Positions 11,004-18,386 of a stretch of DNA of 41,168 bases are shown in pieces (the first letter of the stretch is position 1; each line of letters starts with the position of its first letter). The notes beneath the pieces were generated by a model. That model searched no databases and was not told the origin of the DNA. It saw nothing but the letters and a program-made list of their open reading frames with translations. The position numbers and the translations under genes are program-made. Origin of the DNA: Ignavibacteria bacterium RIFCSPLOWO2_12_FULL_56_21 (GTDB lineage Bacteria; Bacteroidota; Ignavibacteria; UBA10030); assembly GCA_001802945.1 (NCBI GenBank), contig MHAK01000014.1, positions 26,375 through 67,542 of the forward strand, in the 5' to 3' direction.

Positions 11004-11357
11004 CTAGGAGGAGCTTCGGGCAGTCTTGAGTGAAGATGCGAAGATCTTTGTCAATTCCAGAGCCTCGGCTCGAAGGGCATCGTGATCCTCCGCATTGGCG
11101 TGACCAGAATCCTTCAGGACATCAAGCCAATAGACGCACTCATCAGATTCCTCAGAAACAATCTGTAGTTTTGAAAGGAACTCGGCCTTTGAGCGAGCCA
11201 AACAGCTCGCGCGATAATTGGCCCCTATCGAAGTGCCCGACTTCACGAGTTGACGAGCGATCACATCGATTGAGATTCGACGTGGAAGAGAATCCACATA
11301 CTTTACGATTCTCGCTGCAAATCGCTTAGTTCGATCCTTAAGTTCCTCCGATGTCAT
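11004..11357 (-). CDS. Four-helix-bundle protein (S23 type)
   Basis: A 117-residue helical protein of the family first seen in 23S rRNA intervening sequences and common as free-standing genes in Bacteroidota relatives. RTKRFAARIVKYVDSLP, then LVKSGTSIGANYRASCLARS and FLSKLQIVSEESDECVYWLDVL are the typical conserved segments of helices 1, 2 and 3. The family forms pentamers of four-helix bundles; its molecular role is unknown. It lies 46 nt upstream of tRNA-Glu on the same strand, and tRNA-His is upstream of it. The ATG at 11357 gives full family length. Confidence 0.85.
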   Translation of the reverse strand: MTSEELKDRTKRFAARIVKYVDSLPRRISIDVIARQLVKSGTSIGANYRASCLARSKAEFLSKLQIVSEESDECVYWLDVLKDSGHANAEDHDALRAEALELTKIFASSLKTARSSS

Positions 11358-16302: not shown

Positions 16303-16940
16303 ATAGGTGGAAGATCGCGGCGAAGATGAGGCAGTGAATTATCAACACGCCCGCCCGACCGCTCTTAAGCCCAAGAAATGGGCGGGCGGGGAACACGGAA
16401 TGATCAAGGCGCAAGTTCTAGTGGAGGAGCTGCCCTAATGGAGCTTCGTTGAGTATCTACAAACCCCTGCCCTACACCTCTTGAGGAGCATTGTACAAGC
16501 CCGGCGCGAGATCGGCGACGTTTACACTGCCCCGATTTTCTATTCCTTCAATTCCGGCACATTTCCATTTCTCTCTAATGTTTGTCATGTCTCCAAGTGC
16601 CGGAATTGAAGCAATGAGGTCCGGGATATCCCAAGCGAAATCGGTCTCCACTCTTCTTCTCGATGATCTCCTTCTTTCACCTTCCGATCTCGCGCAAAGT
16701 TTCTTTCTGCCGCTTTCTTTCCTAAAGAAAGCGGCAAAAAGATCATTAGCCTGGAGAGGACATCATGTGGAGATATTCATAAGACGCCAGCCCCAGATCT
16801 TTGAAACCTTTGCCATTGACTGAAGTCAATGGCAAATTAAACCAAAACCCTTCGGGTTTGTTGAGCAGTTTCCCTCTTCTGGCTTCTCTCCTCCCCGTTC
16901 ACTATACTTTCCATCGCCCTGAACTGAACAGGAGGTACGC
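16303..16940. repeat. Gene-free region with three perfect palindromes
   Basis: No coding ORF is supported. CGCCCGCCC (16348-16356) pairs with GGGCGGGCG (16380-16388), related to the CCTGCCCGCC palindromes. TGCCGCTTTCTTT (16708-16720) and its exact complement (16724-16736) form a 13-bp stem with a 3-nt loop. TTTGCCATTGAC (16809-16820) and its complement (16825-16836) form a 12-bp stem, followed by AAACCC-TTC-GGGTTT at 16845-16859. None is followed by a T-run. The end of the region holds the GGAGG site of the kinase gene. Confidence 0.65.
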
Positions 16941-18386
16941 ATGTTCCGCAACCTGCCCCTTTCCACCAAACTTCTGCTCACGCTTGTTCCACTCTTTCTC
17001 GTCCTCATCCTGAGTTCGTATGTGCTGACGTCCCAGGGTCAGGAGGAAGCGATGATGGAACAGGCGAAGAATTCCGCCTTTGAGCGGGCCCACATTGTTC
17101 GCCTGGCCCTAGTGCAACAGATGCTCGAGAACGAAATGGTGGACGATGCGTTCGTGGACGGGCTCCGTCGCGTCGGCGGATTGCAGGATCTCTACATTCG
17201 CATCAAGACGGAAAACCTGCATTTGAAGGATTGGCTTGAAGATTCAGTCCGCACCGTCCGACTGATGAAGCGCGAGGCTGAGGCGAGCGCCAAGGGAAGC
17301 CTGGGAGAGGAGGTCTTCAATACCGGTTCTGCACTCTTCGTGAATCGTGAGAGCGACATCGAAGCCATCATCCCGTTCAAGGCCGAGAAGAAATGCCAGG
17401 CATGCCACGATGTGCCGGTCAACCACGTGCTCGGAGCCGCGCATATCACCGTGCCGATGGCCCAGATCAACGCCTCCATCGCCGCCAATTCGCAGCGGAC
17501 CGCGCTCATCACGTTCGGGTTCGCGCTCCTTACCGTGCTTGTCGGCGCTCTATTGTATCGATCGCTCATTCAGAAGCCGATCAAATCGCTCGTGGCCGCC
17601 ACGGAAGCCATTGGACAGGGGAACTTGAACGTTGAGGTGCGGGTCTCCGGGGCAAAAGATGAACTGGGCGTGCTCTCGCAGTCGTTTGAGGGCATGCGCA
17701 AGGCGTTGCGGACCGCACAAGATGCTCTCCGCACTTCGACCGTTGGACAGATCGCCGGGTCGCTCATCCGCGACTTCCGCGCGCCGATGCGTCAGATCAT
17801 CGCCGCCGTTGGGCAGATCGAGAAAGGCGAGCCCGACCCCGCCATGCGGGCGCAGCTTGTGAACACCGCCAAGAACTCGGTGTTCGACATGAACAAGATG
17901 GCGCAGGACCTGCTGGATTTCACGACGGGGGAAATGAAGGTCAACAAACGGTCCGCCAACATCCAGAATTTCCTGAATTACGTCGCGGAAAACGTCCGCC
18001 AGGACCTGGACCGGGACATGATCAAACTCGAAGTCAGTCACGGATTCACGGGGAATGCACCGATCGACTACGAGCGCTGTTCCCGGGCCGTCGCCAATAT
18101 CATTTCGTATTCCGTCAACTACATACCGCCGGGGGGCGTGATCAGGCTGATGTCGAAGAGTCAGGGGGCCGGATTTCAAATTATCATTTCTGACAATGGA
18201 AACGGGATTCCGGCGCAGTTCCTAGACCGCATCTTTGAGCCGTTCAACAGGGTCGTTCAGGAGAAAGGCCTTGGTTTGAGCATGGCCCTTGCCAAACGGA
18301 TCATCGACGCGCAGGGAGGGAAAGTGACAGTGGCGTCAGAAGAGGGGAAGGGGACGGTGTTTACCATTACGATGGCGGGAGCCTAG
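16941..18386 (+). CDS. Haem-c HAMP sensor histidine-kinase-like protein, catalytic His lost
   Basis: A 481-residue membrane sensor. A helix at about 8-29 is followed by a periplasmic domain (30-185) carrying one CXXCH haem-c motif (C152, C155, H156 in KKCQACHDVPVNH), a second helix (about 188-207), HAMP (208-260) and a kinase-like region. The dimerisation/H-box segment reads AGSLIRDFRAPM (272-283): the normal phosphoacceptor His is Arg277 (CGC at 17769-17771; His would be CAC). In the N-box the second Asn is Tyr390 (NIISYSV). The G1 motif DNGNGI, the F-box IFEPF and a GLGLS G2 motif remain. It probably senses redox state or a diatomic gas by haem but may not autophosphorylate (inference). GGAGG precedes the ATG. 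No response regulator is adjacent. Confidence 0.85.
   Translation: MFRNLPLSTKLLLTLVPLFLVLILSSYVLTSQGQEEAMMEQAKNSAFERAHIVRLALVQQMLENEMVDDAFVDGLRRVGGLQDLYIRIKTENLHLKDWLEDSVRTVRLMKREAEASAKGSLGEEVFNTGSALFVNRESDIEAIIPFKAEKKCQACHDVPVNHVLGAAHITVPMAQINASIAANSQRTALITFGFALLTVLVGALLYRSLIQKPIKSLVAATEAIGQGNLNVEVRVSGAKDELGVLSQSFEGMRKALRTAQDALRTSTVGQIAGSLIRDFRAPMRQIIAAVGQIEKGEPDPAMRAQLVNTAKNSVFDMNKMAQDLLDFTTGEMKVNKRSANIQNFLNYVAENVRQDLDRDMIKLEVSHGFTGNAPIDYERCSRAVANIISYSVNYIPPGGVIRLMSKSQGAGFQIIISDNGNGIPAQFLDRIFEPFNRVVQEKGLGLSMALAKRIIDAQGGKVTVASEEGKGTVFTITMAGA

Follow-up and report, generated by a model that had tools for sequence, protein, structure and literature searches.

The window, i.e., the whole 41-kb stretch of DNA analyzed herein, corresponds to G000:C14:26375-67542 of a 3.36-Mb genome consisting of 138 contigs, and carries a gene whose 481-aa product is built like a membrane-bound sensor histidine kinase having a periplasmic haem-c site. 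As summarized in Table 1, the CXXCH motif of the periplasmic domain and the HAMP domain were both found to be intact, and the two replacements pointed out in the earlier note, namely Arg277 for the phosphoacceptor His of the H-box and Tyr390 for the Asn of the N-box, were likewise borne out by alignment. Arg277 was aligned with the phosphoacceptor of ZraS, the best PDB sequence match, as well as with the His of the active homologs, and Tyr390 with the N-box Asn of the active homologs. Both codons, CGC and TAT, are a single base away from a His or Asn codon. The Pfam HisKA profile (PF00512) scored 16 bits at aa 275-329, under its curated cut-off of 26.9, and an NCBIfam search of the 481-aa protein returned generic kinase matches alone, far under their cut-offs.

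Table 1. Features of the haem-c sensor pseudo-histidine-kinase gene (positions in the window).
Feature	Position	Strand	Evidence
AGGAGG, likely ribosome-binding site	16930..16935	+	sequence; 5 bases 5' of ATG
Haem-c sensor pseudo-histidine-kinase gene, 481 aa, ATG at 16941	16941..18386	+	ORF; orthologs in two bacterial families
First transmembrane helix, ~aa 8-30	16962..17030	+	hydrophobic stretch; model helix; exact ends by inspection
Periplasmic sensor domain, aa 31-187, Cache-like fold	17031..17501	+	model pLDDT 87.7; Foldseek/VIA: Tll0287, GSU0935, GSU0582, WalK, CitA
CQACH covalent haem-c attachment motif, aa 152-156	17394..17408	+	sequence; C152, C155, H156 invariant across whole family
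His168, possible distal haem ligand (putative role)	17442..17444	+	12/12 in pseudokinase clade; rare in active relatives
Second transmembrane helix, ~aa 188-207	17502..17561	+	hydrophobic stretch; model
HAMP domain, aa 208-257	17562..17711	+	PF00672, 51.9 bits
DHp-like helical hairpin, aa 264-328, without phosphoacceptor	17730..17924	+	HisKA below cut-off; model helices; alignment
Arg277 codon CGC at H-box His position	17769..17771	+	sequence; alignment
Ala281 codon, H+4, position governing phosphatase activity in active kinases	17781..17783	+	alignment; H+4 role from PMC8292422
HATPase_c (CA) domain, aa 376-478	18066..18374	+	PF02518, 69.8 bits
Tyr390 codon TAT at N-box Asn position	18108..18110	+	Tyr in 15/15 clade members, Asn in 15/15 active f3 and paralog relatives
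G1 box DNGNG, aa 418-422, kept	18192..18206	+	alignment
F box, ATP lid and G2 box, aa 430-452	18228..18296	+	FEPF, GxGL kept; lid rewritten (positions 437, 439, 440, 444)

A search covering the order (98 genomes), the class (391), and the phylum (395) identified orthologs in 7 of the 32 genomes of the window's own family (f1) and in 9 of the 22 genomes of a second family (f5), and a scan of the genome contigs added no members beyond the orders already found. The six other f1 genomes belong to five other genera, and their orthologs are 55-62% identical to the window protein. Tyr390 was present in all six, and Arg277 in all five that cover the H-box, so that this residue is Arg in 6/6 copies including that of the window. 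The f5 copies (~45% identity) possess Gln277 (7/7) together with Tyr390. Throughout the clade, the phosphoacceptor His was thus missing in 13/13 members and the N-box residue was Tyr in 15/15. By contrast, His and Asn were kept in all sequences of the active groups, namely f3 (5 sequences), which is the nearest active set with 36-40% identity to the window protein, the haem-c paralogs (10 sequences, including the one in the window's own genome, at L070:9491-11092), and f6 (8 sequences). Since the double replacement has become fixed throughout a clade, it is not a matter of chance, and since most of the other alignable kinases in the own genome retain His and Asn, it does not reflect a general trend there either.

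In the full-length tree and the kinase-core tree alike, a single branch (support 98/99 and 100/100, respectively) set the pseudokinases apart from the other sequences, though the placement of the root was not firm. The simplest history suggested by these sequences would be one loss in the common ancestor, with Arg and Gln as the states of the two families. The earlier note had held that close relatives having His and Asn at the two positions would point to a sequencing error or a recent inactivation; the close relatives turned out to have Arg and Tyr, and His and Asn were found in distant homologs alone (≤40% identity). A sequencing or assembly error at positions 277 and 390 would be in keeping with the single base that separates either codon from the canonical one, but the same residues recur in independent genomes of five other genera and the second family has Gln and Tyr. 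Sequencing error and recent inactivation were therefore rejected, the chance of an error being practically negligible.

Comparison with the active f3 and paralog kinases revealed that further changes accompany the two replacements throughout the clade: Asn390 → Tyr is joined by D393 → N, A394 → Tyr, and H458 → Gln, and the ATP lid has undergone T437 → Lys/Arg, G439 → Val, K440 → Gln, and T444 → Val/Leu. The earlier statement that the ATP-lid motifs are kept thus stands for the G1, F, and G2 motifs but not for the surrounding lid, which in the window protein has T437 → R, G439 → V, K440 → Q, and T444 → L relative to the active relatives. The F box and the G2 glycines were retained in the clade, and the G1 Asp in 13/14 members (D418 → Asn in the other one, and G422 → Ala in two). 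In addition, all members covering the HAMP-DHp linker share a 4-residue deletion within it. The H+1 Asp was retained in all clade members, and the H+4 residue was Ala or Ser in 12 of 13 (Thr in the other one), being Ala281 in the window protein, in comparison with Thr, Ser, or Asn in the active f3 and paralog groups, where the lid Lys is mostly kept. The clade alignment showed no conserved cytoplasmic His, and hence no substitute phosphoacceptor His. In HisKA kinases, a Thr or Asn at H+4 governs the phosphatase activity, which is diminished by an Ala there, and the Asn of the N-box is involved in the transfer of the phosphoryl group (PMC8292422). Judging from these residues, it appears that the kinase activity has been lost in the clade, and that the phosphatase activity has also been lost in the window protein having Ala281.

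Despite the missing His, the N-terminal, H-box half of DHp helix 1 was among the best-conserved segments, with identities of 0.86 and 0.94 in the two pseudokinase families. The part of the helix below the H-box, which is usually the regulator-recognition face, was poorly conserved in these families (0.50 and 0.45); among the active groups, the same part gave 0.66 in f3 and 0.77 in f6, but 0.37 in the paralogs. The conservation of helix 1 thus speaks somewhat against a close fit to a single response regulator, although this sequence-based indication is mixed, as the active paralogs are also variable there.

The dN/dS values calculated by the Nei-Gojobori method were ~0.03-0.11 in close clade pairs, indicating strong purifying selection, and 0.20 and 0.14 in two comparisons of the window gene with diverged copies, in which the synonymous sites were near saturation. 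By domain, the values were 0.02-0.08 for DHp and 0.08-0.17 for CA, similar to those of the active paralogs (0.09 and 0.13), and thus the cytoplasmic half is not drifting freely. The reading frames were intact in most genomes, and 2/16 copies looked broken. The ortholog in Ignavibacteria bacterium UBA6688 (G018, L081:1535-2989) is interrupted by an in-frame TAG at residue 394, where the same-genus G003 has Tyr, and that of G091 (L091:9228-10620) has lost ~20 codons and changes frame within residues 160-183, shortly downstream of the CXXCH motif, the copy of the same-genus G090 being intact. Both defects may stem from assembly (sequencing) errors or represent real decay. A clean absence of the gene was seen in G014 between the M28 peptidase and methyltransferase genes that flank it elsewhere, indicating that it is dispensable at the family level.

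The patchy presence, the clean empty site in G014, and the two broken copies would all suit a relic kinase on its way out, whose sensor may still bind haem while the cytoplasmic half is functionless. However, such a relic is very unlikely given that DHp and CA are under purifying selection near that of the active paralogs and that both families have retained Tyr390. The proposal in the earlier note that the gene might simply be inactive was thus refuted at the clade level by the low dN/dS in close pairs and the intact frames in most genomes, notwithstanding the two broken copies. With the kinase fold kept in the predicted model, the catalytic residues lost, and the orthologs under selection, the protein appears to be what is understood as a pseudo-histidine-kinase.

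The sensor model (aa 31-191; pLDDT 87.7) resembled Cache domains, with VIA Z values of 10.1 for WalK, 9.3 for CitA, and 8.8 for Tll0287, which are modest and refer to a predicted model. GSU0935, Tll0287, and GSU0582 were among the first nine Foldseek rows for this model with likewise modest E values (4e-3 to 3e-2), and these three proteins have been named as members of the haem-c Cache family (sCache_heme, DUF3365/Tll0287-like, PF11845), a signalling-type member of which binds NO tightly (PMC12889525). The PF11845 profile did not match the window protein, for which the best Pfam sensor match was Mcp40H-20_sensor (16.1 bits, cut-off 27). As PF11845 matched 3/31 family members alone (best E 0.0014), the assignment to sCache_heme rests on the motif and the fold. 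At position 168/169, 12/12 clade members have His168, whereas 15/15 active f3 and paralog sensors have Met169; the axial (distal) haem ligand possibly differs between the pseudokinases and their active relatives. The own genome encodes cytochrome c assembly proteins (PF01578, three matches).

The remark in the earlier note that no response regulator adjoins the gene proved to be an understatement, since none of the 59 receiver-domain matches in the genome fell in the 41-kb window and the nearest one on the contig (C14:23506-23841) ends ~19.5 kb upstream of the gene. In f1, the gene lies between an M28 peptidase gene upstream and a polysaccharide cluster downstream; in f5, arginine genes are located upstream, and a DsbD/CcdA-like gene downstream, and the neighbourhood also contains two genes resembling a ferredoxin oxidoreductase pair (the arginine and oxidoreductase genes having been named by sight). 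No kinase or regulator was found as a conserved neighbour in the f1 and f5 gene neighbourhoods, and a neighbouring gene was accordingly rejected as the partner. Elsewhere in the window, a 23S rRNA intervening-sequence protein gene (PF05635) occurs at 11004-11357 (-), and a relative of this gene lies just upstream of the G013 ortholog. Several of the f5 pseudokinase genes are followed by the DsbD/CcdA-like gene, and in G000 and G020 a pair of genes, one thioredoxin-like and one for DsbD, lies before the active paralog (L087, L091, L092, L093, L070); such neighbours, which the window gene does not have, may reflect c-type cytochrome or thiol chemistry. The active f3 haem-c kinase genes (L095, L096, L098, L099), but not the pseudokinase genes, start a few bases after an N-acetylmuramoyl-L-alanine amidase (Amidase_3) gene, which hints at a link to cell-wall remodelling. 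Furthermore, the own genome encodes a receiver-kinase fusion (L013:1111-2328 (+), on G000:C127) having Tyr at the H-box (RLLYDLHNP) and a kept N-box Asn, directly before an NtrC-type regulator gene. Its sequence makes it a possible second, DivL-like pseudo-acceptor.

The active haem-c paralog occurs in 10 of the 98 genomes, and 7 of these 10 also carry the pseudokinase. Fisher p values for the co-occurrence, which ignore kinship, were 7.5e-5 over the order, 0.0048 in f5, and a non-significant 0.20 in f1. Shared ancestry alone may produce such a pattern, and several pseudokinase genomes have no active paralog; the paralog is thus one tentative candidate for the partner. A mixed dimer of the two proteins comparing two haems (His168 versus Met169), in which the inactive subunit would report one redox or NO range and gate the active one, is a speculative arrangement that we hold to be quite unlikely.

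Taken together, we propose that the protein is a long-established pseudo-histidine-kinase which passes its haem state on via HAMP and the helical bundle and acts by contact on a partner, most likely an active histidine kinase, and we give this reading a probability of about one half. Among the three roles suggested in the earlier note, that of a pseudokinase regulating a partner fared best, being favoured by the presence of both replacements in every f1 ortholog covering them and by purifying selection, although the search yielded no partner. The covalent haem c in the periplasmic Cache domain would sense a redox state or a small ligand such as NO, and the signal would pass through the second transmembrane helix and HAMP into the DHp bundle, which probably still dimerizes. 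As the DHp/CA half has neither phosphoacceptor His nor phosphatase residue and its ATP site is remodelled, the output would be exerted by protein contact. The pseudokinase would thus most likely join or dock on an active histidine kinase and shift the activity of this partner, as RocA does on CovS; the allosteric target would be such a kinase or, less likely, a response regulator. Within this scheme, the lack of catalysis, the loading with haem, the choice of partner, and the sign of the effect on it are predictions.

The alternative outputs differ in what the DHp and CA domains are supposed to do. The DHp surface might read or sink a phosphorylated or unphosphorylated response regulator with an affinity set by the haem state. 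The high conservation of the H-box region, the rank of the DivL structure (4q20) as the fourth Foldseek match for the model, and the binding of DivK~P by DivL without catalysis (PMC4211667) speak for such a role, which is nevertheless rather unlikely in view of the low identity of helix 1 below the H-box compared with two of the active groups, an argument tempered by the equally variable active paralogs. It is also doubtful that CA binds nucleotide without phosphoryl transfer and lets the ATP/ADP ratio gate the output: the largely retained G1 Asp, the kept F box and G2 glycines, and a lid segment strongly conserved in f5 (0.95) would be in agreement with such an ATP-dependent switch, but the N-box Asn → Tyr, lid Lys440 → Gln, and Gly439 → Val changes in all members, the G1 substitutions in a few of them, and the weak binding of TNP-ATP by DivL (PMC4211667) are not. 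Finally, a non-canonical enzyme, in which another residue takes the phosphate or which works in trans on a partner kinase, could be imagined from the HATPase_c domain still being recognized and the H+1 Asp being retained in all; this is highly improbable, however, considering that a kinase deprived of the N-box Asn and the lid Lys should be severely impaired in phosphoryl transfer and that the clade has no conserved cytoplasmic His. We hence continue to prefer a contact with an active kinase.

To our knowledge, few bacterial pseudo-histidine-kinases are known, and the principal one with conservation throughout a large clade is DivL. Such pseudokinases have been described before, as have haem-c Cache sensors; in the open-access literature, we found no description of their combination as a conserved natural clade, nor of this protein in Ignavibacteria. 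The clade would represent another natural pseudokinase lineage with a different sensor, in which first the His and the N-box Asn, as well as the phosphatase residue in most members, were lost and a rewritten ATP lid was then fixed, and also a haem-c Cache sensor coupled to an output without catalysis. Since this order, and sometimes a single genome, contains both active and inactive versions of one protein design, they offer a comparison set in which the role of a kinase fold after the loss of catalysis is directly testable.

Among the closest proteins in design, the active haem-c kinases of the same order (f3 and the paralogs) share the sensor/HAMP/DHp/CA layout at ~30-40% identity but keep the His, the Asn, and mostly the lid Lys. 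As for the sensor, the window protein shares with the sCache_heme family the Cache fold, as predicted by the model, and a CXXCH motif in a short helix between strands. It differs in lying under Pfam detection, and the members described for that family are fused to conventional signalling modules, histidine kinases among them (PMC12889525). DivL, a pseudokinase of Caulobacter and other alphaproteobacteria which has neither kinase nor phosphatase activity and binds DivK~P, resembles the window protein in its HisKA/HATPase_c architecture, its fold (4q20), and the replacement of the phosphoacceptor His throughout a clade (PMC4211667). It differs in having PAS domains, a Tyr at the His site, and DivK~P as the sensed signal, in contrast to the periplasmic haem-c sensor, the Arg or Gln at the His site, and the Tyr at the N-box of the window clade; no PAS domain was matched by Pfam in the window protein, in which a periplasmic domain, a transmembrane helix, and HAMP precede DHp instead. 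RocA of group A Streptococcus is a membrane pseudokinase interacting with CovS in the membrane (PMC7028121), and is likewise membrane-spanning and kinase-like; a contact output without autophosphorylation has been demonstrated for RocA and is proposed here by analogy. Unlike the window protein, RocA has six putative transmembrane segments and still possesses its dispensable DHp His, H246 (PMC7028121). In Corynebacterium glutamicum, a pseudokinase variant of ChrS alters signalling by HrrS (PMC9491836), and thus provides a precedent for an inactive haem-responsive kinase acting through an active paralogous kinase, as proposed herein. That variant was, however, evolved in the laboratory by a frameshift in its CA domain, whereas the window clade is natural and conserved and has a complete CA domain.
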